This document shows, one piece after another, positions 43,693 through 63,861 of a stretch of 64,000 bases of DNA; position 1 is the stretch's first letter; each line of letters starts with the position of its first letter. The position numbers and the translations under genes were made by a program. Source of the stretch: a virus; IMG/VR virus record IMGVR_UViG_3300042465_007464, positions 45,601-109,600 of that record. The stretch is one strand, 5' to 3'. The notes beneath the pieces were generated by a model that saw only the letters and a program-made list of their open reading frames with translations, was not told the origin of the DNA and made no database searches.

Positions 43693-43723
43693 TAAAAATA
43701 AGGAAAAAATCAGTACGATCCAA
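43693..43723 (-). promoter_or_regulatory. TTGGAT-type promoter of secreted protein 1
   Basis: Coding strand TTGGAT, 17-base spacer, TATTTTTA, about 30 bases before ATG 43663. The same arrangement is found at 45032-45062. Confidence 0.55.
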
Positions 43724-45031: not shown

Positions 45032-45062
45032 TAAAAATAAGGAAAAAACCAATACAATCCAA
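45032..45062 (-). promoter_or_regulatory. TTGGAT-type promoter of secreted protein 2
   Basis: Coding strand TTGGAT, 17-base spacer, TATTTTTA; duplicate of the promoter at 43693-43723. Confidence 0.55.
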
Positions 45063-46280: not shown

Positions 46281-46673
46281 TTATAAATATAGGCCTAGTT
46301 CGTAAGCTCTCATGGTAGAATTCATTGCGTCTGTGATAGTTTCGGATAATTTACCGATTTCTGTCTTGTTTAGCATGAATGTTCTGCCACGCAATGAAAC
46401 TTCAAATGTTTCTGTTTTACCAACTCTTTCAGCATACAGGTTATTTGATAACGTTTCAATTGATTTAGCGTAATTTAATAAATCTTTGTAACGCATAGGA
46501 ATTACAGCGCCAGCAACGTGCATTTCGCCGATTAATGTCCCTAATGGTTCGGATCTAAAATTGTCTGCAGATATTTTGTCTTGAAAAACAAAATCTAATT
46601 CTGCCCAAGTGTTGCCATAGCGCGTTCTAAATTTGTCGCTAATTGCCCATGGCTGATTGATACTTTTTTTCAT
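46281..46673 (-). CDS. Hypothetical protein
   Basis: 130 residues starting MKKSINQPWAISDKFRTRYG; ELDFVFQDKISADNF and a final helix MRAYELGLYL. It looks globular alpha/beta with no motif I recognise. Sits between two other short genes of the 47.4-45.1 kb unit. Confidence 0.62.
   Translation of the reverse strand: MKKSINQPWAISDKFRTRYGNTWAELDFVFQDKISADNFRSEPLGTLIGEMHVAGAVIPMRYKDLLNYAKSIETLSNNLYAERVGKTETFEVSLRGRTFMLNKTEIGKLSETITDAMNSTMRAYELGLYL
46283..46290 (-). promoter_or_regulatory. Late-type ATATTTAT element within an operon
   Basis: ATATTTATAATAAAGGA on the coding strand about 17-24 bases before ATG 46266; it overlaps the end of the upstream gene, suggesting later re-expression of the distal genes. 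Confidence 0.45.
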
Positions 46674-51165: not shown

Positions 51166-51196
51166 TAAAAATAAGAAAATAAAATTAAAATTCCAA
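51166..51196 (-). promoter_or_regulatory. Host-type promoter
   Basis: Coding strand TTGGAA, 17-base spacer, TATTTTTA followed by TTTG, about 26 bases before ATG 51140; close to the Bacteroidota TAnnTTTG form. Confidence 0.55.
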
Positions 51197-52004: not shown

Positions 52005-52247
52005 TTAAATATTACAATAAAATTCATAACAACTATCTGCAGGATTTTTACGATCGTAAAAACACCATAGTCCCACCGGGTTTCCATTTTGTAAAGATCC
52101 TTTCCAGGCTACGGAACCGTTATCCCAATAACCTTTAAAGTTTCCTGTTTTTGGAGTACTTGCACGTTTACTAAAACGTCCTGGATGTCCAAATTGCATA
52201 GCTTTTTGTTTCGCTCTCGATATTTCTATATCAGTCATATATCTCAT
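52005..52247 (-). CDS. Small MORN-repeat-like protein
   Basis: 80 residues. Start at 52247 (MRYMTDIEISRAKQKAM) is preferred because an ATG 16 codons upstream would lie within the promoter. GNFKGYWDNGSVAWKGSLQN plus GNPVGLWCFYD is a MORN-like repeat (YxNG.xxxG..xxGxxxGxW). Such repeats often bind membranes or partner proteins. Behind a class-I early promoter although far from the main early cluster. Function unknown. Confidence 0.65.
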   Translation of the reverse strand: MRYMTDIEISRAKQKAMQFGHPGRFSKRASTPKTGNFKGYWDNGSVAWKGSLQNGNPVGLWCFYDRKNPADSCYEFYCNI

Positions 52248-52260
52248 TTTAACTATATAA

Positions 52261-52291
52261 TAAAGATAATGAAAAAAACCGCACGTGTCAA
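52261..52291 (-). promoter_or_regulatory. Class-I early promoter (isolated copy)
   Basis: Coding strand TTGACA, 17 bases, TATCTTTA, with CGTGCGG after the -35; about 14 bases before ATG 52247. The only copy outside the 55-62 kb cluster. Confidence 0.75.
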
Positions 52292-52328
52292 GCATTTTGC
52301 CGAAAAAGTTTGCATAAACAGTAAAAAA

Positions 52329-52350
52329 GTGCTAACAGCGACGTTAGCAC
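52329..52350 (-). terminator. Rho-independent terminator
   Basis: Minus strand GTGCTAAC/GTTAGCAC hairpin followed by T6; ends transcription of the leader-bearing gene at 52398. Confidence 0.85.
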
Positions 52351-52397
52351 TCTATACGCTTGCCTCTAAACGTATCGCCTAAGGTAGCAGGCTATCT

Positions 52398-52901
52398 TTA
52401 ATATCTTCGAGCTGACTCGTTCAAGTTCTTTTTGAATTTAGCAATCAAATTCAAATCACGTTTAGTTAAACCTTCATTTTGTTTTCTGCTTTTTAATTCG
52501 GCTTGCATTTCTTCTAAATCTTGTTGAAGAAGTTTAATTTCTTTTGCACTTAACTTGCTATCTTTCATTGCAGATTTCAATTGTCCTATGTGCGATGCTA
52601 ATTCGTTGTTTGTAGAATTTTTATAAGCATGTTCGCCTTCAGCCTGCATTTCTTTGTCATGTGCAGCTTTTTTCATAGTTTCTGTTTCATTGCCATCGCC
52701 ATCTAAGTCGATATAATCTGGTTTAGCCGTTTCATCCATTTCAGTCTCATCATCAGACAATCCTGGCATATTTAATTCTGCTTGTTCTGCTACATTGGCT
52801 GCGTGTGTAGCTATCGCATCCTTAAGGGTAGGCAAAGACCCATCTGCGTTACGTTCCCACGCATATCCCTCTAAAAGTGATTTCAATTTAAGTTTTGACA
52901 T
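52398..52901 (-). CDS. Leader-bearing (KLKLKSLLEG) candidate cargo protein
   Basis: 167 residues. An ATG 23 codons upstream overlaps the previous gene; MSKLKLKSLLEGYAW gives the shared leader with an LLE site. The body is acidic, with DLDGDGNETE (a Ca-binding-like loop), a helical coiled-coil-like region (EIKLLQQDLEEMQAELKSRK) and a basic C-terminal end. Ends at a strong terminator. Function unknown. Confidence 0.72.
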   Translation of the reverse strand: MSKLKLKSLLEGYAWERNADGSLPTLKDAIATHAANVAEQAELNMPGLSDDETEMDETAKPDYIDLDGDGNETETMKKAAHDKEMQAEGEHAYKNSTNNELASHIGQLKSAMKDSKLSAKEIKLLQQDLEEMQAELKSRKQNEGLTKRDLNLIAKFKKNLNESARRY

Positions 52902-52917
52902 TGTTATTGTTTCTATA

Positions 52918-53292
52918 TTAAAAATATCCTGTTGTAGGTTTAAAATTATTTGTAGTTTTTTGTAAACCATTAATCAATTGCTGCGTATATTTTTCTGCAT
53001 ATTTAAGACGTTTGCCTATATATTCAGCTCCGGGTATTGGTTTATTTTCTTTAATCGATTTGACAAATGTTTGTAACATGTTAATATCTGAATTTTCTTC
53101 ATTGCTAACTCCATTCATTTTATTAACTAGCATTTCAGCTTTACTAACATTAGCTTTAACCAACGTTATTACCAAATTGTATAGTTCGGAATTAGACATT
53201 TGTGATACCGGTTTAACTTGCTCTGCTAAATTCTTTGTACGGAATCTACGCATATTTTCCGCTAAAAAGTTTTTATCATTTTTATTTGTCAC
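52918..53292 (-). CDS. LAEN-leader protein (GTG start)
   Basis: 124 residues, GTG start with GGAG seven bases upstream. The leader NFLAENMRRFRTKNLAEQ is the divergent third member of the LAEN family (42630, 43793) and ends LAE-Gln. The body is helical (LYNLVITLVKANVSKAEMLV). A late-type element sits upstream. Packaging with the phage head is inferred; function unknown. Confidence 0.72.
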   Translation of the reverse strand: MTNKNDKNFLAENMRRFRTKNLAEQVKPVSQMSNSELYNLVITLVKANVSKAEMLVNKMNGVSNEENSDINMLQTFVKSIKENKPIPGAEYIGKRLKYAEKYTQQLINGLQKTTNNFKPTTGYF

Positions 53293-53310
53293 GTTTTCTC
53301 CGATTTTAAT

Positions 53311-53318
53311 ATAAATAT
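53311..53318 (-). promoter_or_regulatory. Late-type ATATTTAT element
   Basis: ATATTTATATTAAAATCGGAG on the coding strand, about 19-26 bases before the GTG at 53292. Confidence 0.5.
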
Positions 53319-53375
53319 AAGATGAATGAAAAGAAAAAATTTTTTAGTACGTTAGTACGGCTTAGTATATAGTGC

Positions 53376-53475
53376 GCCCTTCCAGGAGCGCACAGGTTAT
53401 CCCTTCCAGGAGCGCACGGGTTATCTTCCAGCATCGCACCGATTCGTTTCCAGCATCGCACAGGCTCGTTTCCAG
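53376..53475. repeat. Tandem 22-24 base repeats, non-coding
   Basis: Four units begin TTCCAG: two are TTCCAGGAGCGCACaGGTTAT-like and two TTCCAGCATCGCACnG-like, then a partial TTCCAGGCG. Units are 22-24 bases with no unique spacers. The tract is GC-richer than its surroundings and lies just beyond the stop of a leader-bearing gene. Purpose unknown. Confidence 0.7.
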
Positions 53476-53480
53476 GCGTA

Positions 53481-53999
53481 TTACTCGATACCCGTTGCGT
53501 CTGCATCTTGTTTGCGTACTATCCATAATTTGCCACCAATCTCACGTGTTACATATCCCAATGAAATTAGTTTTGTCGCATTAGCCGCCAACAAGGCTTT
53601 ATATATGCGAGTCTTTTGCTGGTCTTTTTCTGCAGATGCAGTGTCAGCTCCAGTTACATCTACAGCTTCAGGTTGATGTTGTGCCAGAAAATCGCTTATA
53701 GCTTCTGCCGCAGTACTCATGAGACGTAGATAATTAACATGTCCCACTGCTGCTGAACGTGCGTGATTAACTGTCCAATTCAAATCTGCAGCGTGACGCG
53801 TATCTGGCGTTTGTGTTAAAATACCAAAACCCCATTCTCTGCGTTGTAAAAGTGTGAACACAAACAAGATGCGTTGACCATTCACTTCAATTTCAGTTTC
53901 ATAGCCATTCATATCGTTATCTTGCCATGTGAATTGGGTCGCGTAGGGCGTTACGCTCCCCAAAGTGATTTCTGTTAAAAGTTGTTTTAATCGTATCAT
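53481..53999 (-). CDS. Leader-bearing (MIRLKQLLTE) candidate cargo protein
   Basis: 172 residues. The leader MIRLKQLLTEI has an LTE site. A beta domain follows (FTWQDNDMNGYETEIEVNGQ, ILFVFTLLQRREWGFGILTQ); a Gln/Ala-rich linker (QHQPEAVDVTGADTASAEK) leads to a C-terminal winged-helix-like region (ALLAANATKLISLGYVTRE). Its ATG overlaps the stop of the neighbouring leader gene by four bases. Function unknown. Confidence 0.72.
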   Translation of the reverse strand: MIRLKQLLTEITLGSVTPYATQFTWQDNDMNGYETEIEVNGQRILFVFTLLQRREWGFGILTQTPDTRHAADLNWTVNHARSAAVGHVNYLRLMSTAAEAISDFLAQHQPEAVDVTGADTASAEKDQQKTRIYKALLAANATKLISLGYVTREIGGKLWIVRKQDADATGIE

Positions 54000-54484
54000 A
54001 GCATACCTGTTGGTGCTGGTGCGTAACGTGAAGCCGCAGGATTAAGATGTTTTATTGAATTCCATAAGCTATCCCAAGACAAACCTGCTTCTGCAGATAT
54101 GTCTACAAGCAAATCTGTTTTATATGTATGTTTATACGTTGCAATAACATTGCTTAATTCTTGCAAAGTTTTAATGCTTTTTAAAACATTGAGTACTTGT
54201 GAGTTTCCGCCTATACCCGTAACCAATTGATTTAATTGTTGTGCTTTGCGTCGCGAAGTTGTATCTCCCGTAGTCTTGATGCGTTTAGCTTGTTGATAAG
54301 TTTGTGTGAAACGTTGTTGTGGAGTAGTTTGTTTTGGCATAGTCGCCCCAAAATCTGTTGGTGCATCCGCTTCTACCCCGGGAGTTTTACCCGCAGGTGT
54401 ACCCGAAGCCTTGCTTAGATTGAATGCATTGTTACTACTCAATGCAAATCCTAGTTGTTCTATTAACGTCTTAAGGCGTATCAT
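53996..54484 (-). CDS. Leader-bearing (MIRLKTLIEQ) candidate cargo protein
   Basis: 162 residues. The leader MIRLKTLIEQL has LIE-Gln. Next come a Pro/Gly-rich, Thr-rich linker and a helical region (FTQTYQQAKRIKTTGDTTSR, NVLKSIKTLQELSNVIATYK), then a Pro-rich tail (RYAPAPTGML). It is the first gene of a two-gene unit with a late-type element. Function unknown. Confidence 0.72.
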   Translation of the reverse strand: MIRLKTLIEQLGFALSSNNAFNLSKASGTPAGKTPGVEADAPTDFGATMPKQTTPQQRFTQTYQQAKRIKTTGDTTSRRKAQQLNQLVTGIGGNSQVLNVLKSIKTLQELSNVIATYKHTYKTDLLVDISAEAGLSWDSLWNSIKHLNPAASRYAPAPTGML

Positions 54485-54500
54485 GGAATCCTTTTTTATA

Positions 54501-54508
54501 ATAAATAT
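54501..54508 (-). promoter_or_regulatory. Late-type ATATTTAT element
   Basis: ATATTTATTATAAAAAAGGA on the coding strand, about 17-24 bases before ATG 54484. Confidence 0.5.
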
Positions 54509-54535
54509 GCCATGCCAGTATAGTGCCTAAGACTT

Positions 54536-54599
54536 CTAGGGTGACAGGGGTTACTAGGGTGGCTAGGGTGACAGGAGCGCTCCTAGGACTTCTAGGGTG
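54536..54599. repeat. Four CTAGGGTG repeats
   Basis: CTAGGGTG at 54536, 54554, 54563 and 54592, with two longer ACTTCTAGGGTG copies and a CTCCTAGGA palindrome between. Irregular spacing; binding sites or a degenerating array. Confidence 0.55.
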
Positions 54600-54750
54600 G
54601 TACAGAGTGGGTATGGCTCAGCCATATACAATATAGAAGCAAGGTTGTCCCAAAAAAATCTCCCCGTGCAAGGAAAACATATATAACCACTCCATCCAGA
54701 CCAGGGGGTCTACACCCCCTTAACGAAACCCTCCCCCACCCCCTGGTTTT

Positions 54751-54803
54751 GGGGGGGCTAACGGGGGTCAAAGCAAGGGGGGTCACCCATGAAACGAGGG
54801 GGG
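54751..54803 (+). other. G-quadruplex-type sequence
   Basis: Four G tracts of 7, 5, 6 and 6 (54751, 54763, 54777, 54798) with loops of 5, 9 and 15 bases in an otherwise AT-rich genome. It fits a G-quadruplex pattern on the plus strand; alternative hairpins with nearby C runs are also possible. Confidence 0.6.
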
Positions 54804-54850
54804 CATTTACACCCCCCATCACTACCCCTTAGGGCTTATGCTTGATAATG

Positions 54851-55069
54851 CTATGCGGTCTCCACTGTCTCTAACAGGTCCTTAACGGATTGCAATGCTA
54901 CCTTCGCACCATACTGGATAGCCATTTGCATTAGGATGATGTCCATGCTGCCTTGGTTTGCTAGGGCAAATGCTTGCAATGCCTCTAGGCTCTCTGGTGT
55001 TGCTACGAAGCCTCTGTCTAGGCCTTTCAACTCTGCTGCTACAAATTCTTTTACGTCTACTGCTTTCAT
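54851..55069 (-). CDS. Small early protein
   Basis: 72 residues, helical: MKAVDVKEFVAAELKGLDRG, SLEALQAFALANQG, AIQYGAKVALQSVKDLLET. It has a class-I promoter and a GAGAGA-type leader before the ATG. Unknown function; one of a series of tiny proteins expected early in infection. Confidence 0.72.
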   Translation of the reverse strand: MKAVDVKEFVAAELKGLDRGFVATPESLEALQAFALANQGSMDIILMQMAIQYGAKVALQSVKDLLETVETA

Positions 55070-55090
55070 TGTCTCTCTTTTTAATTTATA

Positions 55091-55121
55091 TAAATATAAT
55101 GAATTAATCGGTGCGTGTCAA
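55091..55121 (-). promoter_or_regulatory. Class-I early promoter
   Basis: Coding strand TTGACA, 17 bases, TATATTTA; for the gene at 55069. Confidence 0.75.
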
Positions 55122-55135
55122 GCCCTTTGTGTATA

Positions 55136-55369
55136 TTATGCTTCTTGATTGATTTGTTGAAGTACTTCGGCTGCTTCTACATTATCCGGAAGCGTGTTGT
55201 CCATACCAATTTTCAATTCATGCATCAACTCATATACTGCTGAATAAGATGCGCGACAACTCTTAGTGAATGCGTGGTCTGCGCCGAAGTCGCGAGTTGC
55301 CTCTTTTAATGTTAACCATAACCGCGCCTCTTGTTTTTGGATCCCTTGGATCATTGCTGCTTTTGTCAT
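55136..55369 (-). CDS. Small early protein
   Basis: 77 residues, helical: AMIQGIQKQEARLWLTLKEA, a polar centre with one Cys (KSCRASYSAVYELMHELKIG) and an acidic end (NVEAAEVLQQINQE). It follows the 43-residue gene closely and has only an AGAGAGAT leader, so the two form a unit behind the promoter at 55577. Function unknown. Confidence 0.7.
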   Translation of the reverse strand: MTKAAMIQGIQKQEARLWLTLKEATRDFGADHAFTKSCRASYSAVYELMHELKIGMDNTLPDNVEAAEVLQQINQEA

Positions 55370-55392
55370 ATCTCTCTTTTTATATTAGGTTA

Positions 55393-55524
55393 TTACTTAC
55401 TCTTAATAATTGCATCTAATTGTTGTTTCAATTGGTCGATGTCTTTCTTAGTTAATTTAGTGATTTTCAGGTTAGCTGCTGCTGCTTTGAAATCGAAAAA
55501 AGCTTTTGGATCAATTTGTTTCAT
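55393..55524 (-). CDS. Tiny helical early protein
   Basis: 43 residues, ATG 55524 to TAA 55393: MKQIDPKAFFDFKAAAANLK followed by ITKLTKKDIDQLKQQLDAII. Highly helical, basic/hydrophobic alternation. GAGAGAA precedes the ATG. Function unknown. Confidence 0.65.
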   Translation of the reverse strand: MKQIDPKAFFDFKAAAANLKITKLTKKDIDQLKQQLDAIIKSK

Positions 55525-55576
55525 GTTCTCTCTTTTTTTAAATTAATGCTTAGGGCCTTTCCCTAATTGCTATACA

Positions 55577-55607
55577 TAAAGATAAGAATAATCGCAATAC
55601 AAACCTA
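55577..55607 (-). promoter_or_regulatory. TAGGTT-type early promoter
   Basis: Coding strand TAGGTT, 17 bases, TATCTTTA; variant of the TAGGAT class with one arm of its palindrome. For the genes at 55524 and 55369. Confidence 0.55.
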
Positions 55608-55648
55608 ATCTTTTTGCAACTTTTTTTAACTTTTTTTACAGTAGAAAA

Positions 55649-55670
55649 CCGACACCATCGCTGATGCCGG
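55649..55670 (-). terminator. Probable terminator after AAA+ gene
   Basis: Minus strand CCGGCATC/GATGGTGTCGG stem followed by TTTTCTAC, just beyond the stop of the gene at 55696. Confidence 0.55.
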
Positions 55671-55695
55671 ATCCTTATTTGAGAGATATGTTCGC

Positions 55696-56646
55696 TTATT
55701 CTGCGGCGATGATTTGTTCTGCTACCATCTCCTCTACATTGTCAAAGCCCATTGCACATATTCTTGCCGCTTTGATGAAGCTTCTAAGGTTGATGTCAAC
55801 TCCTCCAAACTTAGCATCCAAGCTTTTCATTACATCCAATGCTTGACGCTTAGCCGCTACCGGTATGGTTGGCTCCATAGACTCAAGCAATTGCTCCATG
55901 CGTTGGAACATTTGCGTGGTGTTCATTGTTATGTCTGCTACAAAGCTACGGCTTCGGATTGCTGCATCCAATTTGCTTTGGCTGATGTTGCTGACAAAGA
56001 TTATTTTGCCGGTAAACTCAAAGTGTGCTGGGATCGGTTCACCAAACTCATCTTTAAGGGGCTTGGTAGAGATATAAGATATCTTGCGAGTGTCATAGCT
56101 ATCCAAAGCCGCTTTGAGGATGTTAACCGCATCGTCGTCTTTGAATACAGAGTCACAGTCATCCAACACTACTATCTTGTCGGAGTTTTGGTACAAGGTA
56201 ATAAACAAGCCGGCTGCGGTAGCTTTGCCTTTGAAGTGCTCAAACTCGTAAGACTCTCGCAATCCCATCGCCTTAAGTGTCTCCTTAACCAAGTGCGTCT
56301 TACCTACACCTGCCATACCCGTGATAACCAAAGAGGGTTGGATCCCACGTCCTACCATCTTAGTAAGGCGCTCCAAGTTACCAAACATTACTTGTGGATC
56401 TCTGCTATCCAATACGGAAAGGAAAGACATTTTGCTTGGAGCTGCCGGTGCCATTGTTACACCTGCTTGGTCCGCTGCTACTCGCGTTACTCGGCCGTTG
56501 CCATTAACCATTAGCACTTCGCGGTTCTTCTCTGCGTTCAATAGCTGAACGTGACGGATTAGATCCTTTGTTGCAAACTCTCCGGTTTTGATGTTCTTCG
56601 CCATCAATTTTCCTTTTACTCTTACTGGTTCAAATACATTTAACAT
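55696..56646 (-). CDS. AAA+ ATPase
   Basis: 316 residues. Walker A GMAGVGKTH (110-118), Walker B IVVLDDCDS (158-166), sensor-1-like IIFVSNIS and an arginine-finger-like DAAIRSRS identify an AAA+ domain; the C-terminal helices (VDINLRSFIKAARICAMGF) form its lid. The N-terminal 90 residues are a separate domain. Clamp-loader-like or protein-remodelling roles are possible; no clear subfamily. Behind a class-I promoter, so early. Confidence 0.88.
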   Translation of the reverse strand: MLNVFEPVRVKGKLMAKNIKTGEFATKDLIRHVQLLNAEKNREVLMVNGNGRVTRVAADQAGVTMAPAAPSKMSFLSVLDSRDPQVMFGNLERLTKMVGRGIQPSLVITGMAGVGKTHLVKETLKAMGLRESYEFEHFKGKATAAGLFITLYQNSDKIVVLDDCDSVFKDDDAVNILKAALDSYDTRKISYISTKPLKDEFGEPIPAHFEFTGKIIFVSNISQSKLDAAIRSRSFVADITMNTTQMFQRMEQLLESMEPTIPVAAKRQALDVMKSLDAKFGGVDINLRSFIKAARICAMGFDNVEEMVAEQIIAAE

Positions 56647-56670
56647 ATCTCTTATTTTTTAATTATAATA

Positions 56671-56701
56671 TAAATTTAATGAAATTATCCGTGCGTGTCA
56701 A
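56671..56701 (-). promoter_or_regulatory. Class-I early promoter
   Basis: TTGACA, 17 bases, TAAATTTA on the coding strand; for the AAA+ gene. Confidence 0.75.
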
Positions 56702-56719
56702 GCCCTTTGGCAACTTTTT

Positions 56720-56848
56720 TTAAACTTTTTTCATGTCGTGGAAAACTAGGATTCCTGCTGGGATCAACCCTAATAGACCTAAGTCATTACCAAATGCTAC
56801 TAGTACCAATCCGATCCCTAATGCTAATGCTGTCAATGTTGTTCTCAT
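56720..56848 (-). CDS. Tiny membrane protein
   Basis: 42 residues, ATG 56848 to TAA 56720. Two short hydrophobic segments (LTALALGIGLVLVAFG and LGLLGLIPAGILVF) separated by NDLG. It has its own class-I promoter. A small phage membrane protein could act on host envelope or defence proteins; no family seen. Confidence 0.65.
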   Translation of the reverse strand: MRTTLTALALGIGLVLVAFGNDLGLLGLIPAGILVFHDMKKV

Positions 56849-56870
56849 ATATCTCTCTTTTTAATTTATA

Positions 56871-56901
56871 TAAAGATAAGGATATTATCCGTGCGTGTCA
56901 A
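56871..56901 (-). promoter_or_regulatory. Class-I early promoter
   Basis: TTGACA, 17 bases, TATCTTTA; for the tiny membrane protein at 56848. Confidence 0.75.
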
Positions 56902-56930
56902 GCTTTTTTGAAACTTTGTTTAAACTTTTT

Positions 56931-57095
56931 TTATCCGAAGAATCCACCCGCAGTCAGGATCCAAATTAAGATTGCAGTGTCAATTAAACCCATAAACAAG
57001 TTATGTCGTCCCTCGCGAGGCTTACCGTGCAAGAAGGATACTAACAACAATTGGATCCCTAATAAGGTTAATAAGATAATTTGTGGTGTTCCCAT
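56931..57095 (-). CDS. Small two-helix membrane protein
   Basis: 54 residues. Start at 57095 is preferred over an ATG 15 codons upstream because of the AAAGAGAT leader. Two transmembrane helices: PQIILLTLLGIQLLLVSFL and MGLIDTAILIWILTAGGFFG. The linker is basic (HGKPREGRHNL), so both ends are predicted outside the cytoplasm or the pair spans as a hairpin. Function unknown. Confidence 0.65.
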   Translation of the reverse strand: MGTPQIILLTLLGIQLLLVSFLHGKPREGRHNLFMGLIDTAILIWILTAGGFFG

Positions 57096-57130
57096 ATCTC
57101 TTTGTTTTAGATTGTTTCTCACGTCCGCAT

Positions 57131-57152
57131 GGGCCAACATTTCTGCTGGCCC
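57131..57152 (-). terminator. Hairpin, possible weak terminator or leader structure
   Basis: GGGCCA/TGGCCC inverted repeat between the genes at 57175 and 57095. No T-run follows, so it may be a leader hairpin rather than a terminator. Confidence 0.4.
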
Positions 57153-57174
57153 GGGACTATGTTGAGAGATATGT

Positions 57175-57549
57175 TTACTCTGTTAATGTTGCCTCATATT
57201 GTTCATCGCTGTCATCAACAATTTCAAAGCATCTGTCTAAGGCATTTTGGATGGCATCAAAGATGTTGTCACTCTCGACGTCGACATTTACCAACCTTAC
57301 TGTGTTGTGATAATCCATTTCAAACTCAGCTGATGACAAAGCAACAACGTCATCATTGTCCATGTTATTGATTGCGGATTCAATCACATCACCGATTGCA
57401 TCAAACATTGATTGCGTCATGCGCAACTCTGTCTTTGTCACTACCTCAGGATCCAAGCCTTGGATAAGTGCAATCACATTGTCAATTGATACTACTGAAG
57501 TCAACGCCTTTGCTGCTTCTAACTGTGCTACTAATTCTTCTTTTCTCAT
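57175..57549 (-). CDS. Acidic small early protein
   Basis: 124 residues, very acidic and helical: MRKEELVAQLEAAKALT, DNVIALIQGLDPEVVTK, IEDVIESAINN-like DAIGDVIESAINNMDNDD. DNA-mimic or inhibitor roles are possible for acidic early phage proteins but unproven here. Behind a class-I promoter. Confidence 0.68.
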   Translation of the reverse strand: MRKEELVAQLEAAKALTSVVSIDNVIALIQGLDPEVVTKTELRMTQSMFDAIGDVIESAINNMDNDDVVALSSAEFEMDYHNTVRLVNVDVESDNIFDAIQNALDRCFEIVDDSDEQYEATLTE

Positions 57550-57573
57550 CTCTCTTATTTTTTAATTATAATA

Positions 57574-57604
57574 TAAATTTAATGAATTAATCGGTGCGTG
57601 TCAA
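57574..57604 (-). promoter_or_regulatory. Class-I early promoter
   Basis: TTGACA, 17 bases, TAAATTTA; for the gene at 57549. Confidence 0.75.
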
Positions 57605-57633
57605 CCGTTTTGACAACTTTTTTTAAACTTTTT

Positions 57634-57840
57634 TTACAGGCCGGAAAACTCCCCATCAACAAACAATAATGCTTCTCCGGAGCCTAATCCATCCACGCAT
57701 ACATTAAAGTATCCGTCATTGGCATCCATAATGTTGTCCTGGTCTAGGATCTCGGTAGCTACTCGTTTGCTGTCCATCAACTTCATGAAGTCTGATGCGT
57801 TGAGGCTACTTGCTGCTTTGATAATTTGATTTCGTGTCAT
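57634..57840 (-). CDS. Small early protein
   Basis: 68 residues: an N-terminal helix (TRNQIIKAASSLNASDFMKL) then acidic beta segments (NDGYFNVCVDGLGSGEALLF). Behind a class-I promoter with three phased A-tracts upstream. Function unknown. Confidence 0.7.
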   Translation of the reverse strand: MTRNQIIKAASSLNASDFMKLMDSKRVATEILDQDNIMDANDGYFNVCVDGLGSGEALLFVDGEFSGL

Positions 57841-57864
57841 ATCTCTTATTTTTTAATTATAATA

Positions 57865-57895
57865 TAAATTTAATGAATTAAATGATGCGTGTCAA
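57865..57895 (-). promoter_or_regulatory. Class-I early promoter with phased A-tracts
   Basis: TTGACA, 17 bases, TAAATTTA; upstream (57896-57926) the coding strand has three AAAAAAGTTTC-like units at 11-base steps. Confidence 0.75.
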
Positions 57896-57924
57896 GCTTT
57901 TTTGAAACTTTTTTGAAACTTTTT

Positions 57925-58011
57925 TTAATTAAACAATTCAACATAAATTATTGCGTCAATCGCCAAAGTTGCTTGGCATACAATCATCTGGATTTTTTTT
58001 ATCTCTTTCAT
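57925..58011 (-). CDS. Tiny protein (28 residues)
   Basis: ATG 58011 to TAA 57925: MKEIKKIQMIVCQATLAIDA then IIYVELFN. One hydrophobic helix, possibly membrane-associated. It has its own class-I promoter and AGAGAT leader, which argues that it is real in spite of its size. Confidence 0.5.
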   Translation of the reverse strand: MKEIKKIQMIVCQATLAIDAIIYVELFN

Positions 58012-58030
58012 ATCTCTTAATTTTATAATA

Positions 58031-58061
58031 TAAAGATAAGCAAAATAACCATGCGTGTCAA
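58031..58061 (-). promoter_or_regulatory. Class-I early promoter
   Basis: TTGACA, 17 bases, TATCTTTA; for the 28-residue gene at 58011. Confidence 0.75.
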
Positions 58062-58089
58062 CCGTTTCGGCAACTTTGTTTGAAAAAAG

Positions 58090-58830
58090 TTACAGGTACT
58101 GAGCCAATAACTCAATACCCGGTAAACTTGCCAATGCCGTCTCTGCCTGTCGAACTAATTGTCTTGCACGTTCATTCGTCACATTCATCTCCTCAGCAAT
58201 TTGATCCATGCATTGTGCATACTCTCGTCCGATCCCGTAGAATCTCTCCAATGCTTCGCGTTGCTTTGGTTTAAGCATACTCATAGCACGTTGCAAATCG
58301 AATTGCATATCTTGCACGTCACGGCGTGATACGGTGCTATCCGCAGCCAAGTAACGATCCGCATAGGTTTCTTTGTTCTCGTCGTCACCTACCGGAGTGG
58401 ATATGCTTTTGGTGCTATACTCCTCAGTAGCCGTACGGTGGCTTGGGATCCTTACTGTGCGGGACATATCATTCAATGCCTTTTGCAACTCGGCACGGAT
58501 ATACCATACCGCAAAGGTAATGAACTTAACGCCTTTGGTTGGATCGTAACGTTCAGCGGCTTCAAACAAACCTACATTACCAAACCCAATGAGATCCTCC
58601 AATTCCAAACCCATTCCCTGATACTGTCGTGCTACTTGGATAACGAATCGCAAATTGCTTTCCACCAACTCATTGATTGCACGTCGGTCTCCTTGCTGTG
58701 CGCGTTCTCCTAATACGATCTCTTGTTCTCGAGTCAATGTGCCTGCCTTGCGCACTTCTTGCATGTATCTTACTGTAGACTCTGCTGTGGCTACTACTGC
58801 GCCGGTTGTGATGAATTTTCTTTTTGACAT
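58090..58830 (-). CDS. Sigma70-family RNA polymerase sigma factor
   Basis: 246 residues resembling Bacteroidota RpoD: a region 1.2-like YMQEVRKAGTLTREQEIVLG, then the region 2 core ANLRF-like SNLRFVIQVARQYQGMG, LEDLIGFGNVGLFEAAERYD and FITFAVWYIRAELQKAL, followed by VRIPSH. A C-terminal region 4 has LKPKQREALERFYGIG and a helix-turn-helix (MDQIAEEMNVTNERARQLV). It would bind host RNA polymerase core. Early location and RpoD similarity suggest a role distinct from the gp55-like factor; it may read one of the promoter classes here. Confidence 0.9.
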   Translation of the reverse strand: MSKRKFITTGAVVATAESTVRYMQEVRKAGTLTREQEIVLGERAQQGDRRAINELVESNLRFVIQVARQYQGMGLELEDLIGFGNVGLFEAAERYDPTKGVKFITFAVWYIRAELQKALNDMSRTVRIPSHRTATEEYSTKSISTPVGDDENKETYADRYLAADSTVSRRDVQDMQFDLQRAMSMLKPKQREALERFYGIGREYAQCMDQIAEEMNVTNERARQLVRQAETALASLPGIELLAQYL

Positions 58831-58872
58831 ATAACTCTTTTTTAATTAATAAAACGTAACCAATGCAACCGA

Positions 58873-59070
58873 CTACTTGCCGGTTGCTAAGAATTTAAAA
58901 CTTACTCTTACTGGAGCGGTTTGCTTTGCGACATACTCTGCCTTTCTTTTACCCAACTCAATTGCTTGTGCTACGGTTGTGGTATTACCTCCGGTTCTTG
59001 CGTCTTTAGACATTTGTGCCATTACCGCTCCTTGTCTTTCAAATCCTGAATTTCTTTTTCCTTTTGCCAT
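58873..59070 (-). CDS. Small basic early protein
   Basis: 65 residues, basic: MAKGKRNSGFERQGAVMAQ, then TVAQAIELGKRKAEYVAKQT and a beta strand end (VRVSFKFLATGK). It lies directly upstream of the sigma factor gene and shares its class-I promoter, so the two are probably co-transcribed. It might interact with the sigma factor; not shown. Confidence 0.65.
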   Translation of the reverse strand: MAKGKRNSGFERQGAVMAQMSKDARTGGNTTTVAQAIELGKRKAEYVAKQTAPVRVSFKFLATGK

Positions 59071-59095
59071 ATCTCTTATCTTTTTAATTATAATA

Positions 59096-59126
59096 TAAAT
59101 TTAATGAATTAAACCATGCGTGTCAA
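59096..59126 (-). promoter_or_regulatory. Class-I early promoter
   Basis: TTGACA, 17 bases, TAAATTTA; for the 59070 gene and probably the sigma factor. Confidence 0.75.
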
Positions 59127-59169
59127 GCATTTTTGAAACTTTTTTACAACGGATCCAATACTATTGGGT

Positions 59170-59391
59170 TCACATTTCTAATGAGTCAATCACTTGGTTC
59201 CATGCATCGGTTTGCTTTGCTTCTCCCTCTGCATTTAGAATGAATCGAAAATTAAAATCTGCATTAGGATTGATTACATAATGTTTGCCATTGTCAGCTT
59301 GAATTAAAAGCATTTCATGATTATACATTTCAGTAACGGTACCAAATAGAACTTCGTTAACATTTAATAAATTTGTGAATTTTACTCTCAT
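59170..59391 (-). CDS. Small beta-barrel-like early protein
   Basis: 73 residues: MRVKFTNLLNVNEVLFGTVT, MYNHEMLLIQADNGKHYVIN and FNFRFILNAEGEA suggest a small beta barrel. Behind a class-I promoter that is combined with a terminator. Function unknown. Confidence 0.7.
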   Translation of the reverse strand: MRVKFTNLLNVNEVLFGTVTEMYNHEMLLIQADNGKHYVINPNADFNFRFILNAEGEAKQTDAWNQVIDSLEM

Positions 59392-59414
59392 ATCTCTCTT
59401 TTTAAATTAATACT

Positions 59415-59445
59415 TAAATATAATAAAAAAAGGGATGCGTGTCAA
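59415..59445 (-). promoter_or_regulatory. Class-I early promoter, -35 in terminator loop
   Basis: TTGACA, 17 bases, TATATTTA; the -35 is the loop of the hairpin at 59432-59452 and its T-tract lies in the spacer. Confidence 0.75.
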
Positions 59446-59452
59446 GCATCCC
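59432..59452 (-). terminator. Terminator/promoter composite
   Basis: Minus strand GGGATGC/GCATCCC stem, loop TTGACAC, then T7. It would end the 59475 gene and its loop is the -35 box of the next promoter. Confidence 0.7.
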
Positions 59453-59474
59453 GGTAACTTTTTTCAAACTTTTT

Positions 59475-59732
59475 TTAATAATGCGGATTAACAAAGTCGA
59501 TCCCAATAGCTTTGTAATACACAGCCAATCCTTCAACCAACCTTTCTTCCAAGCCATGCTCAAGATGTTTTTCAATTTCAGCCACCATTACCTCATTGTC
59601 ATCGCAAACCTCTTCTGCAACATGGATCCCTTCGAATTCCAATTCACCATTCTCACCACCCGAGTAGTTCACTTCCAATTCAACCATCATTCCATTCAAT
59701 TGAACTGTCAATCCATAAATTACACCTTCCAT
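59475..59732 (-). CDS. Acidic small early protein
   Basis: 85 residues: a beta start (MEGVIYGLTVQLNGMMVELE) and an acidic helix (NEVMVAEIEKHLEHGLEERL). It follows the 59754 gene by about 21 bases without its own promoter. Function unknown. Confidence 0.68.
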   Translation of the reverse strand: MEGVIYGLTVQLNGMMVELEVNYSGGENGELEFEGIHVAEEVCDDNEVMVAEIEKHLEHGLEERLVEGLAVYYKAIGIDFVNPHY

Positions 59733-59753
59733 ATATTTGTTTTTAATTTGTTA

Positions 59754-59948
59754 CTACATTTCGCCTTCAACAACGTCAGTTACTGTAAAATAAGCTACCC
59801 GTTCTATAAAATCAACAACGTCTTCCGGCTCAAAGCCTTCAACATTAATAAGATCCTCAGCAATTGCCTTAATTGCTTGTTCCAATTTTTCCTGTGCCAT
59901 AGTGGGAGTTAAACCCAACATTCTGTCAAATGCTTCCATTGATACCAT
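59754..59948 (-). CDS. Acidic small early protein
   Basis: 64 residues, helical and acidic: FDRMLGLTPTMAQEKLEQAI, KAIAEDLINVEGFEPEDVV. First gene of a two-gene unit behind a class-I promoter. Function unknown. Confidence 0.68.
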   Translation of the reverse strand: MVSMEAFDRMLGLTPTMAQEKLEQAIKAIAEDLINVEGFEPEDVVDFIERVAYFTVTDVVEGEM

Positions 59949-59972
59949 AATCTCTCTTTTTAAATTAATACT

Positions 59973-60003
59973 TAAAGATAATAAAAATAACCGTGCGTGT
60001 CAA
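59973..60003 (-). promoter_or_regulatory. Class-I early promoter
   Basis: TTGACA, 17 bases, TATCTTTA; for the 59948 and 59732 genes. Confidence 0.75.
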
Positions 60004-60032
60004 GCATTTTGCTAAAAAAGTTTACGGAAAGT

Positions 60033-60305
60033 TTATTCCTCTTCGTCCCATTCATCACATTCGTCGCCATATTCAAAATCCAACTCGTCGATTATGTCTT
60101 CAAATGTGGCACACAATGCTTCGGCTTCTGCGTCTGTGATAGTGGATCCCGCCTGTTCCATGTTCTCGCCATCCAGCCAACGTTCAAATACTTCGGTTAA
60201 GTCGGATTCCGCTAAGCGTGCATCCATAATCTCTAACGCGTCGTCGTTAGCTACATCGGTGAAGTCGTAAATTCTTCCGTAAAGGTCTTGCAATTTTTCT
60301 CTCAT
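60033..60305 (-). CDS. Very acidic small early protein
   Basis: 90 residues: MREKLQDLYGRIYDFTDVAN and an extremely acidic end (FEYGDECDEWDEEE). Strong negative charge could mimic DNA, as known for several phage anti-defence or polymerase inhibitors; this is only a charge argument. Behind a class-I promoter. Confidence 0.68.
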   Translation of the reverse strand: MREKLQDLYGRIYDFTDVANDDALEIMDARLAESDLTEVFERWLDGENMEQAGSTITDAEAEALCATFEDIIDELDFEYGDECDEWDEEE

Positions 60306-60327
60306 ATCTCTCTTTTTAAATTATACT

Positions 60328-60358
60328 TAAAAATAATAAAAATAACCGTGCGTGTCAA
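60328..60358 (-). promoter_or_regulatory. Class-I early promoter
   Basis: TTGACA, 17 bases, TATTTTTA; for the 60305 gene. Confidence 0.75.
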
Positions 60359-60391
60359 GCATTTTGACAACTTTTTTCGAACTTTTTTTAA

Positions 60392-60547
60392 TTAAAATTC
60401 AACAAAGTCTATTGCCATTTCTCCGATACCCTTTCCGTCACGGGTAATCTCATAATTGGGATCCATACCGGAAATCATGATGTGGGCGATAAGGTCTCCT
60501 ATCGTCGGAAACTCTGCTGTGTAATAATCACAATTTAAACTATACAT
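60392..60547 (-). CDS. Small early protein (51 residues)
   Basis: ATG 60547 to TAA 60392: MYSLNCDYYTAEFPTIGDLI, then AHIMISGMDPNYEITRDGKG and IGEMAIDFVEF. Compact alpha/beta, one Cys. Behind a TAGGAT-type promoter with an AGAGAGAT leader. Function unknown. Confidence 0.65.
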   Translation of the reverse strand: MYSLNCDYYTAEFPTIGDLIAHIMISGMDPNYEITRDGKGIGEMAIDFVEF

Positions 60548-60570
60548 ATCTCTCTTTTTAAATTAATACT

Positions 60571-60601
60571 TAAAGATAAGGTTTATAAAGTTAGGATCCT
60601 A
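60571..60601 (-). promoter_or_regulatory. TAGGAT-type early promoter
   Basis: TAGGAT (within palindrome TAGGATCCTA, 60592-60601), 17 bases, TATCTTTA; for the 60547 gene. Confidence 0.65.
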
Positions 60602-60606
60602 ATTTT

Positions 60607-61005
60607 TTAGGAGAAAAGTTTCGAAAATGTTTCTGCTCGTTTTAAGCATTCAAATTTGCCGGAATCATTCTTTCCCCATATTTCAGCTTTGCCGGAATGA
60701 CTACATTTGGGAATTACTGTGAATAAAACTTCGTTCTCGTTACATATGCGGAAATCGTCATACAACGGTCCTTGACCCGGACAATTATTCTTAAAGAACA
60801 CATATGTCTCTAGGATGTCAATCTCCGGATTTGCTGCAATAAACTTTTTTACCTTAGGGAATAACACATTTGCTTTACGCTCCAATGATGAATCTTTGCA
60901 AAACCAATCATAAAAGTTAAAACAATCATTTTGATCTCCTTCGCTGTCAATTATTCTTCCTGACGCAAATGCATTCAACTGTTCTGCTAAACTTACTTTT
61001 TTCAT
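60607..61005 (-). CDS. Hypothetical protein, 132 residues
   Basis: MKKVSLAEQLNAFASGRIID, then DCFNFYDWFCKDSSLERKA and a long EIDILETYVFFKNNCPGQGP segment; C-terminal GKAEIWGKNDSGKFECLKRA. Five or more Cys residues. The upstream leader has a GGGAATATTCCC palindrome (61032-61043). Behind a TAGGAT-type promoter. Function unknown. Confidence 0.68.
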   Translation of the reverse strand: MKKVSLAEQLNAFASGRIIDSEGDQNDCFNFYDWFCKDSSLERKANVLFPKVKKFIAANPEIDILETYVFFKNNCPGQGPLYDDFRICNENEVLFTVIPKCSHSGKAEIWGKNDSGKFECLKRAETFSKLFS

Positions 61006-61031
61006 AACTCTCTCAATTTATAACATGTTGT

Positions 61032-61043
61032 GGGAATATTCCC
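61032..61043. promoter_or_regulatory. Palindrome GGGAATATTCCC in leader
   Basis: A perfect 12-base palindrome between the promoter (61058-61088) and ATG 61005; a possible operator or RNA hairpin. Confidence 0.45.
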
Positions 61044-61057
61044 TTCTTATTAATACT

Positions 61058-61088
61058 TAAAGATAAGGATAATAAAGTTAGGATCCTA
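61058..61088 (-). promoter_or_regulatory. TAGGAT-type early promoter
   Basis: TAGGAT (palindrome 61079-61088), 17 bases, TATCTTTA; for the 61005 gene. Confidence 0.65.
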
Positions 61089-61280
61089 ATTTATTTGCAA
61101 CTTTTTTTGCAATCTTTTCAACTTTGTTTTAAGCTTATTACGCTCCAACTTGCGAAAGTAATTGCCGTGGTTATACGGAGTGCATCCGTCGGGTTGAGCA
61201 AATGCACTAACCCATTTTGTGGTATCCGTCTTTAGGAATTCCAATCTTGCTTCAATAGCTTTAATTTGTTCTTGTATCAT
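61086..61280 (-). CDS. Small basic helical early protein
   Basis: 64 residues: MIQEQIKAIEARLEFLKTDT, one central CTPYNHGNYF loop and a basic coiled coil (RKLERNKLKTKLKRLQKKLQ). Probably nucleic-acid- or protein-binding. Behind a TAGGAT-type promoter with a possible tandem second copy. Confidence 0.68.
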   Translation of the reverse strand: MIQEQIKAIEARLEFLKTDTTKWVSAFAQPDGCTPYNHGNYFRKLERNKLKTKLKRLQKKLQIN

Positions 61281-61299
61281 ATCTCCCTTTTAATTTTAA

Positions 61300-61330
61300 T
61301 AAAGATAAGTATAATAATGATAGGATCCTA
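61300..61330 (-). promoter_or_regulatory. TAGGAT-type early promoter
   Basis: TAGGAT (palindrome 61321-61330), 17 bases, TATCTTTA; for the 61280 gene. Confidence 0.65.
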
Positions 61331-61385
61331 ATTTTTTGGCAACTTTGTTTGAACTTTTTTCAACTTGAAAAAACAGCCCGTCATA

Positions 61386-61416
61386 TAAAGATAAGTATAA
61401 TAATGATAGGATCCTA
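61386..61416 (-). promoter_or_regulatory. Orphan TAGGAT-type promoter
   Basis: TAGGAT (palindrome 61407-61416), 17 bases, TATCTTTA. No gene with the usual leader follows before the next promoter; it may be a tandem promoter, a relic, or drive a short RNA. Confidence 0.6.
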
Positions 61417-61436
61417 ATCTTTTCGAAACTTTTTTC

Positions 61437-61524
61437 AAACAAAGTTAAGGGAATTATAACCGACTATTTCTATTATGGCAGACTCGCCTCGGTTTATTTT
61501 TTTAACTTCCCTTTAACTTTGTTT
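61437..61524 (-). ncRNA. Long nested hairpin next to tRNA-like gene
   Basis: Arms AAACAAAGTTAAGGGAA (61437-61453) and TTCCCTTTAACTTTGTTT (61507-61524) pair over 17 bases; inside, AACCGA (61458-61463) pairs with TCGGTT (61489-61494). It starts immediately 3' of the tRNA-like gene on the minus strand. Could be a long terminator, processing signal or small RNA. Confidence 0.5.
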
Positions 61525-61527
61525 TGA

Positions 61528-61628
61528 AGTCGGGACAGGATTTGAACCTGCATGGTGGAGACTATTATTCGATCTTATACACTCCACCTTATCTTCCTTC
61601 GACAGCGTTACCATTCCGCCTCCCGACT
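61528..61628 (-). tRNA. tRNA-like gene, anticodon arm not resolvable
   Basis: 101 bases. Acceptor arms AGTCGGG/CCCGACT pair fully. D-arm GCG-GAATGGTAA-CGC and T-arm GCAGG-TTCAAAT-CCTGT are standard. The region between contains a 7-base stem GGTGGAG/CTCCACC, but no 5-base stem with a 7-base loop at the anticodon position. A long type-II-like variable arm, an inserted segment or degeneration are possible. No CCA is encoded. Confidence 0.55.
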
Positions 61629-61640
61629 CGAGGTTGCTGG

Positions 61641-62021
61641 CTAATTAAAGCCAACAAACCCTTTTTCCAATTTTATATCTAAATCCTCCACCATTTCCTT
61701 TAAACGGTAATAAGGAGCGGCTTCCAATTCATCTTCGAATATGTCACATATTCTTTCAATTGTGTAACCAAATCCATATCCGCAAATAGTAACGGCTTTC
61801 TGAATGGCAATCATTTCGTCGGATGCACATTCCCAATCCAATTCAGACAATTCGCCATCTTCTTCATCCAACTCAGCTTCTGCGGCATCCAATGCATCCA
61901 TCCACAGACTATAAATTGCATTCTTTACTATCTCAGCCACTGCATCATTGTGGTCATACATTTCGCGGCTCCAAGGTTTAACAATTTGGGTCCCGTACTC
62001 TACTTTTGGTTCTTTTTTCAT
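61641..62021 (-). CDS. Acidic small early protein
   Basis: 126 residues, very acidic in the centre (DAAEAELDEEDGELSELDWE), with helices KPWSREMYDHNDAVAEIV and ITRICDIF-like TIERICDIFEDELEAAPYY. Behind a class-I promoter fused to a terminator. Function unknown. Confidence 0.68.
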   Translation of the reverse strand: MKKEPKVEYGTQIVKPWSREMYDHNDAVAEIVKNAIYSLWMDALDAAEAELDEEDGELSELDWECASDEMIAIQKAVTICGYGFGYTIERICDIFEDELEAAPYYRLKEMVEDLDIKLEKGFVGFN

Positions 62022-62043
62022 ATCTCTTATTTTTTTATATACT

Positions 62044-62074
62044 TAAAGATAAGTAAAAAAGAGATGCGTGTCAA
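62044..62074 (-). promoter_or_regulatory. Class-I early promoter, -35 in terminator loop
   Basis: TTGACA, 17 bases, TATCTTTA; the -35 is the loop of the hairpin at 62061-62081. Confidence 0.75.
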
Positions 62075-62081
62075 GCATCTC
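62061..62081 (-). terminator. Terminator/promoter composite
   Basis: Minus strand GAGATGC/GCATCTC stem, loop TTGACAC, then T6. It would end the 62093 gene while providing the -35 box of the next. Confidence 0.7.
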
Positions 62082-62092
62082 CCTAACTTTTT

Positions 62093-62347
62093 TTAAACTT
62101 TTTTTGCATCCGTAACAAGCTTGTTACGGAGCTTGTCTACTAACTTTTTAAAATTAGTAACTGCATCCCAATTCCCGGTGTCTATGGGAGCTGTTAACCC
62201 GAAATACCCGTCGGGAGCGTAATGCATATTAAGCAACTGCATACGCGGACTTGCTTTGCGCAATGCTACTTGTTGTGCTGCTACACGTGCAGCTACTTGC
62301 TTAAGCTCTACATCTGTAAGCAATGTGACATTAAAACTTTCTTGCAT
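62093..62347 (-). CDS. Small early protein
   Basis: 84 residues: MQESFNVTLLTDVELKQVAA, RVAAQQVALRKASPRMQLL, then FGLTAPIDTGNWDAVTNFKK and a basic end. Helical and mildly basic. Last coding gene before the long non-coding region; own class-I promoter. Function unknown. Confidence 0.7.
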   Translation of the reverse strand: MQESFNVTLLTDVELKQVAARVAAQQVALRKASPRMQLLNMHYAPDGYFGLTAPIDTGNWDAVTNFKKLVDKLRNKLVTDAKKV

Positions 62348-62369
62348 ATCTCTATTTTTAAATTATACT

Positions 62370-62400
62370 TAAATATAATAATAAAAAGCACGCGTGTCAA
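62370..62400 (-). promoter_or_regulatory. Class-I early promoter
   Basis: TTGACA, 17 bases, TATATTTA; for the 62347 gene. Confidence 0.75.
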
Positions 62401-62441: not shown

Positions 62442-62479
62442 AACAGCGCTGCTAGGTGAGAGATCCTAACAACGCTGTT
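62442..62479 (-). terminator. Terminator at the left end of the non-coding region
   Basis: Minus strand AACAGCG..CCTA-rich inner stem..CGCTGTT followed by T6. It implies leftward transcription through the non-coding region, since no protein gene lies immediately upstream. Confidence 0.65.
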
Positions 62480-62816: not shown

Positions 62817-63148
62817 CTAAAAATCAACTAAAAATAGCCGGGGAGCGGAGGATTCTTCTAAAAATCGTCTAAAAATAGCAGCATCGGACTAAAAATCAAC
62901 TAAAAATAGGACTCGCTATAGCTAGCGATTTCACCAGGATCGCGTCATACGTGTGTATAGTGCAGGTCATGATGGTCTCGCATAAGCCGCAAGATCACAT
63001 ACGACACGACGTATCTGGCGTAGGGAGGAGAGGATGCATCTAAAAATCAACTAAAAATAACGTCACCCGTTTCTGTTTATAATAAGGAATTCCGTCCAAA
63101 AATCAAACCAAATTCATCTAAAAGTCCCCTAAAAATCGTCTAAAAATA
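62817..63148. repeat. Array of CTAAAAATC-NN-CTAAAAATA units
   Basis: Five perfect 20-base units at 62817, 62858, 62889, 63040 and 63129 (NN is AA three times and GT twice), with degenerate half-units between. The two 9-base halves are 11 bases apart, about one helical turn, as for protein-binding iterons. Spacing between units is irregular. Confidence 0.75.
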
Positions 63149-63750
63149 ACATGGGGCATACAGTGCGTATACGTGCTTCCAGGCCTTAACGGATATCAAG
63201 TATCCAGTGCATGTGCAATAAAGACGCTAAGGCGCTAGGAAATGGTGTATAGGGAGAGCGATATATATATCTGTACTACCACCCACGTTCTATTCACTCT
63301 TCCGCCTGGATCGCATCATCCCATGACTCAAACTTTTAACGCATTCTTTCGGGTTGACGCCTCTCCTGGATAAAGGACAAGACACTGGGATGCTGTCACC
63401 ATGACCCCTAACTAATTCATACAATGACGTGCTTCGTACATATACTTGCATTACTTACATTACTTCGAGTATTACTTGTCGTCTTCGTGTTCTTTGCTAG
63501 GTTCTTGGGCATAGATCCGTAACGTACTGTGTTGGAACTTTAGTTAGGGCAATGCGGTGTCTGCTTGGATATCAATTCAATATTTTAAATCTCAACCAAA
63601 TTCTAAACTTTGCCAATAACAAAAACAAAGGCATATCCGTATAAGAAGTACATAAGGTTACGTCGTTGCAAGTACCACTTAATCCTTCCTTAAAGGAATA
63701 GCCTTCGAAATCGAATGTGTTCCATTTAATTTTCATATCATTTTTTTAGT

Positions 63751-63861
63751 AGTCAGGACAAGATTCGAACTTGCACGTGGACCTTGTGTGTATCTCAACT
63801 ATACTGCGGTTATTCCACTCCGTTTAACTATTCAGTGCGTTTACCATTCCGCCACCTGACT
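63751..63861 (-). tRNA. Second tRNA-like gene, anticodon arm not resolvable
   Basis: 111 bases. Acceptor AGTCAGG/CCTGACT, D-arm GCG-GAATGGTAAA-CGC and T-arm GCAAG-TTCGAAT-CTTGT are intact and very like the gene at 61528. The middle has a GTGGA/TCCAC stem just before the T-arm, as in the first copy, and no normal anticodon arm. Likely related to the first by duplication. Confidence 0.5.

Follow-up and report, generated by a model that had tools for sequence, protein, structure and literature searches.

The stretch of viral DNA considered here is a window of 64,000 nt (positions 45,601–109,600) from the 109.6-kb record IMGVR_UViG_3300042465_007464, in which a block of small genes is preceded, almost gene by gene, by near-identical promoter-like sites. 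These sites probably constitute the early-promoter array of a T4-type phage of Bacteroidota, in which a T4-style strategy would have been adapted to the Bacteroidota polymerase. The explanation draws on the sequences, positions and conservation of the sites, on their motif classes, and on similar cassettes in Flavobacterium phage immuto, where no sigma-70 gene was detected; it would have the host sigma factor read the promoters early and at high strength. The early-promoter strategy of T4 is known, and what appears new is its Bacteroidota form with a -35 'dialect' of its own; no description of such an array in Bacteroidota phages was found in the literature searched. Promoter use in large Bacteroidota phages is little described, and the arrays offer candidate strong promoters for such hosts. 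All coordinates below refer to the window unless the record is named.

Promoter sites in the small-gene block

An earlier note made from the sequence had placed 13 promoters with a fixed spacer between 52261 and 62400. All of them were found at those places on the minus strand in the form TTGACACG-N15-TAnnTTTA, the distance from TTGACA to TAnnTTTA being exactly 17 bases at 13 of 13 sites, and a start codon follows each of these class A sites after 13–25 nt. The exact pattern TTGACACGC-N10-18-TAnnTTT gave 12 matches against 0.02 expected from shuffled sequence; the thirteenth site, which lies outside the exact pattern, is TTGACACGTG at 52291. Elsewhere in the 109.6-kb record the class A pattern had no match, and a reversed control pattern had none. 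The class A sites are supported as promoters. The Bacteroidota form that had been proposed for the -10 (TAnnTTT) was borne out, with TAHHTTT at all sites and a final base that is always A where the Flavobacterium johnsoniae consensus has G. The first spacer bases, which had been described as kept in the forms CGCA or CGTG, are CGCA at 11 sites and CGTG at 52291, but CGCG at 62400.

Following the minus strand, the class A promoters are located at 62370–62400 (TTGACACGCG, before an 84-aa gene at 62347, with a terminator-like hairpin at 62479–62442 directly upstream), 62044–62074 (TTGACACGCA, before a 126-aa gene at 62021), 60328–60358 (90-aa gene at 60305), 59973–60003 (64-aa gene at 59948), 59415–59445 (73-aa gene at 59391) and 59096–59126, before an operon of a 65-aa gene at 59070 and the phage sigma gene. 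They continue at 58031–58061 (28-aa open reading frame (ORF) at 58011; hairpin upstream at 58121–58093), 57865–57895 (68-aa gene at 57840), 57574–57604 (124-aa gene at 57549), 56871–56901 (42-aa gene at 56848), 56671–56701 (AAA ATPase gene at 56646), 55091–55121 (72-aa gene at 55069; without the A-tract pair) and 52261–52291 (before an ATG at 52247; hairpin upstream at 52353–52326).

Five more promoters in the block, designated class B, have the spacing and -10 of class A and a TAGGAT-type sequence in the -35 place, either TAGGATCCTA or TAGGTTTGTA. Those with TAGGATCCTA lie on the minus strand at 61386–61416 (with TATCTTTA, and a core repeated at 61330), 61300–61330 (before a 64-aa gene at 61280), 61058–61088 (132-aa gene at 61005) and 60571–60601 (51-aa gene at 60547), and the class B-like TAGGTTTGTA at 55577–55607 of the same strand precedes a 43-aa ORF at 55524, with a hairpin upstream at 55670–55649. 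Small ORFs follow the 13 sites of class A and the 5 of class B, and the claim of almost one promoter per gene is supported. The earlier note had missed class B, and likewise a third promoter set, phased A-tracts, shared leaders, terminator-like hairpins and the sigma gene. The third set lies outside the block on the minus strand, has TTGGAT or TTGGAA, and comprises TTGGAATTTT (51166–51196), TTGGATTGTA (45032–45062) and TTGGATCGTA (43693–43723), each with TATTTTTA.

Upstream of most -35 boxes are phased A-tracts of the form AAAAAAAGTTTnAAAAAAGTTnnnAAAA, with A/T runs every 10–12 bp, an arrangement that appears UP-element-like; two of its positions are A in 97–99% of the 267 cassettes collected from related genomes. 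The early leaders are shared, short, A-rich and devoid of a Shine-Dalgarno (SD) sequence, and the ATG is often preceded by AAAAAGAGAGAT.

Terminator-like hairpins lie over or directly before 6 of the 18 block promoters. At 59445 and 62074 (2 of 13 class A sites, 0.03 expected) the -35 is itself inside the hairpin, as the loop of GGGATGC-TTGACAC-GCATCCC-TTTTTTT and GAGATGC-TTGACAC-GCATCTC-TTTTTT, respectively; at 62400, 58061, 55607 and 52291 the hairpin is directly upstream. Such hairpins would end transcription from the preceding gene, so that many of the small genes would be transcription units of their own. In immuto (MW353175, ∼19–76 kb and elsewhere), a strong hairpin encloses the -35 TTG at 8 of 29 early-type promoters (0.27 expected), and promoter and terminator therefore have bases in common there. 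The idea that the -35 is generally flanked by an inverted repeat was rejected: apart from the GC-rich terminator cases, such repeats were hardly or not at all in excess of the level obtained by re-pairing within the same genome.

The genome-specific -35 box

A relative of the phage sigma factor is encoded by 41 viral loci, from which 24 representative genomes were analysed. They contain 267 cassettes of the same anatomy, and the genes downstream fall into 118 families and 72 singletons. The commonest -35 box varies by genome, being TTGACACGCA, TAGGATCCTA, TAGGATCGCA, TTGGATCGCA or TAGGACTATT. Box mismatches per site were 0.266 between unrelated genes of the same genome, 0.369 between orthologs of different genomes and 0.403 between unrelated genes of different genomes, a difference that label shuffles never came near. 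The main A-tract region showed the reverse trend (0.318 within a genome, 0.226 between orthologs and 0.325 between unrelated genes). The -35 box thus changes as a set while the upstream A-tract flank tracks the gene, a pattern more readily expected from adaptation to a common trans-acting factor than from the copying of entire cassettes. The genome-specific box is a natural experiment on the joint change of a whole promoter set, and its set-wise change is, with the possible coupling of promoter class to SD use discussed below, among the most interesting readings of these data.

It is possible, though less likely than not, that the 10-bp box is in addition the site of a phage-encoded regulator with which it changes together, either a repressor closing the early genes or an activator taking over the -35 as MotA does; this would be compatible with an early-promoter array. 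The uniformity of the box within genomes and its difference between them, opposite to the A-tract, point in that direction, as do a conserved part that exceeds the hexamer and one box class, TAGGATCCTA, that is a palindrome. Against it, no such regulator was found (only eight protein families were shared widely enough to be tested, none of which went beyond vertical markers), at least two box classes occur together in one genome, and the box of immuto is merely TTGC followed by variable bases. Short-tract recombination or host differences could also be the cause of the box uniformity.

Less probable, in our estimate, is that the cassettes serve chiefly as mobile units of recombination by which small genes are shuffled between phages, with expression secondary. 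The model for this is the PeSL cassettes of T4-type phages, which, as cited in PMC4503421, combine an early promoter with a stem-loop terminator in the intergenic spaces of a fast-changing gene block; the present cassettes resemble them in part, but differ in that only a minority have a hairpin and in that the -35 itself can be the loop. The high turnover of downstream genes, the promoter cores repeated at 61330 and 61416, and the hairpins of the block and of immuto all fit such units. On the other hand, the A-tract is nearer to that of the ortholog than to those of same-genome neighbours, which speaks against recent copying of whole cassettes, and few cassettes of the wider group have a strong hairpin (6 of 267 at -10 kcal/mol).

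Recognition of the array

The host primary sigma factor is the likely reader of the array. Immuto, whose capsid and terminase are ∼56% identical to those of the present phage, has ∼24 clustered TTG-N20-TAnnTTTA cassettes with A-rich leaders and no match to the sigma region 2 model (PF04542), so that cassettes of the same type occur where no sigma-70 gene is detectable. In addition, the -35-recognising helix (region 4.2) of the phage sigma hardly varies among genomes whose boxes differ, and promoters of F. johnsoniae, representing the host type, have a -7 element, TAHHTTTG, of similar form (PMC6847099). An early role of the block is likely as well, given that it lies apart from the structural genes, that the immuto cassettes occur without a sigma-70 gene and that the structural genes use another motif. 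Each early promoter would then be a strong composite site for host RNA polymerase with its primary sigma, consisting of helically phased UP-like A-tracts, a -35 TTG 20 bp before the -10, TAnnTTTA and a short, A-rich, SD-less leader.

Several points weigh against recognition by the host sigma. The final -10 base of host promoters is G almost without exception, with little signal at -33 (PMC6847099), but the phage -10 ends in A (87/87 and 225/225), and the weak host -33 signal means that the host consensus does not include a full TTGACA. Class A has TTG at the right distance for the -33, preceded by C or G, and class B has TAG there, where the host element is TTTG; class B is so far from TTGACA in the -35 place that a second factor may act on it. 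No TGn was found at the block promoters, the spacers of which end in CAT, CCT, TAT, GCT or ACT. Finally, immuto may hold a very divergent sigma despite the lack of a sigma-70 match.

That the array is instead read by the phage's own sigma (58090–58830), and is therefore an autoregulated middle class rather than immediate-early, seems improbable. The sigma gene is indeed located within the block, downstream of a class A promoter, and 24 of the 24 genomes compared carry both sigma and array, although they were found through the sigma. However, region 4.2 shows no covariation with the box classes; the sigmas of L006 and L005 are 81% identical, yet their boxes differ; immuto has the array without a sigma-70 match; and the sigma's own operon would first need host transcription. 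We therefore rejected a phage-sigma-dependent array. Chance matches in A+T-rich DNA, for which a loose two-mismatch pattern (95 matches, 89 expected) might speak, can be dismissed on account of the 12 exact sites, which lie on a single strand directly before start codons and are conserved in relatives.

The early promoters of T4 and T4-like phages are many and near-identical, precede early genes and novel small ORFs, and have a phage-specific consensus (PMC2988021, PMC1524935). The array resembles them in its near-identical promoters, strong -35, UP-like A-rich region and host-type -10. It differs in the -10 itself (TAnnTTTA instead of TATAAT), the lack of TGn, three phased A-tracts, a 10-bp -35 box that differs as a set from one relative to another, and SD-less leaders. 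As TGn is part of the E. coli version, the array would work like T4 early promoters without having the same consensus. A MotA box (TGCTTtA, 12 ± 1 bp before the -10; PMC2988021) was not accepted, as the TGCTTGA present at many class A sites lies 19 bp before the -10. The primary-sigma promoters of Bacteroidota (PMC6847099) share TAnnTTT without G at the two variable positions and, with class A, TTG at the -33 place, but end the -10 in G rather than A and have neither the strong -35 nor the A-tracts. The cassettes of immuto are alike in arrangement, but its box is often in a hairpin, and the phage differs further in having no bS21 and no SD use.

Later genes, translation signals and the phage

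Many structural and replication genes have GATATTTATA, with no accompanying -35, 23–36 nt before the start codon, as on the minus strand at record positions 4111, 30968, 55492, 64019 and 94140. The instance nearest to the block is CATATTTATT (54500–54509, minus strand), before a gene at 54484. A longer form, GATATTTATWNNAAA, has ∼60 occurrences in 13 records, nearly all of them in coding orientation; the reversed pattern has 2. This later-gene motif can be read as a -10 in which G replaces the first T. The T4 late promoter TATAAATA was discarded as its identity, since 0 of 32 sites lay before genes in genome G000 against 10 of 14 for GATATTTAT. At record 4097–4150 (L001), two later-motif promoters stand in tandem at a distance of 39 bp, and both have a T-tract and GATATTTATACAAAAAAGGATAC. 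The promoter arrays would also provide a clean map of early and late genes in a group of lake phages that is common.

The early products would include the phage sigma, a 246-aa sigma-70 family factor with regions 1.2, 2 and 4 (58090–58830, minus strand; PHROG 351, E = 2.6e-47; Pfam Sigma70_r2, r1_2 and r4), encoded by the second gene of the operon behind promoter 59126. It has A, Q and K in the places of Q437, T440 and R441 of E. coli sigma-70 and so may read the later class, a role to which we give about an even chance. The link between sigma and motif is not clean: some GATATTTAT sites occur in immuto without a sigma match, and genome G011 has the sigma without the later motif before its genes. 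The other assigned product of the block is a 316-aa AAA ATPase (55696–56646, minus strand; PHROG 1250, E = 2.4e-45; Pfam AAA) of a family that occurs in T4-type phages. For the remaining block proteins tested, family searches gave nothing or a single weak match to a family without known function, and the suggestion in the earlier note that the block encodes host-directed proteins is unsupported, the ATPase and sigma being its sole assigned products.

The two promoter classes also differ in translation signals. In phages of the group encoding ribosomal protein bS21, an SD-like motif preceded 1 of 64 early-promoter genes against 26 of 60 GATATTTAT-motif genes (p ∼4e-9), in a comparison set that includes G001 (a 68-kb fragment with no bS21 seen) and a few genomes without stated bS21 status. 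Over all genes, the motif was 2- to 7-fold enriched over a control window in phages with bS21, except for one short fragment, and preceded 14–29% of genes; in immuto and G011, which lack bS21, it preceded 3%, below background. The bS21 of F. johnsoniae contributes to masking the anti-Shine-Dalgarno sequence (PMC9976891). The bS21-encoding phages thus carry SDs on late and not on early genes, and the link with bS21 is a correlation in which few bS21-less lineages were compared. It makes the question of why Bacteroidota phages carry bS21 directly testable.

A coupled switch of transcription and translation is conceivable, although we would not favour it at present. Early genes would be host-like on both levels, with a host-type promoter and an SD-less, A-rich leader, and late genes on neither, starting from GATATTTATA promoters without a -35, perhaps through the phage sigma, and often with SDs that would be read by ribosomes containing phage bS21; the box would be a lineage-specific address for a phage regulator.

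The phage itself is a T4-type, bS21-encoding freshwater (lake) phage that probably infects Bacteroidota, the predicted hosts of its described relatives. Approximately 118 of 127 predicted ORFs are on the minus strand, and the recognisable genes encode portal, terminase, capsid, sheath, baseplate, DNA polymerase, helicase, UvsX and ribonucleotide reductase, those for capsid, terminase, sheath, UvsX and DNA polymerase being T4-like. The host of immuto is Flavobacterium sp. LMO8. The bS21 gene (795–1037, approximate extent, minus strand) was identified from its translation, with PF01165 above cut-off at record 46434–46583, and its product has Phe at the position matching host Tyr54 (aligned by eye). 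Its setting near capsid, portal and terminase is that of the bS21-encoding freshwater phages of PMC9723584, for which Bacteroidetes hosts were predicted and bS21 and structural genes were found to be expressed together; the main text of that paper makes no mention of promoters or sigma factors, and no SD analysis of phage genes was found there. The record is probably incomplete, because relatives reach 160–176 kb. A near-identity search against phage records gave no match, and host assignment through genome bins was set aside, the single close match being to a 'Helicobacteraceae' bin from a lake that is most likely mis-binned.

Short direct repeats were seen at 53370–53480 (CCAGGAGCGCAC/CCAGCATCGCAC) and, near the right end, at 62830–62920 (TAAAAATCAACTAAAAATAG-type units). 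The minus strand also carries a pair of similar tRNA-like genes, 102 and 112 nt long, at 61527–61628 and 63750–63861, whose anticodon regions are odd (detected with Rfam, missed by ARAGORN). At L001:7991–12869, genes for QueE-like and QueD-like proteins and GTP cyclohydrolase suggest deazaguanine DNA modification, as annotated in immuto.

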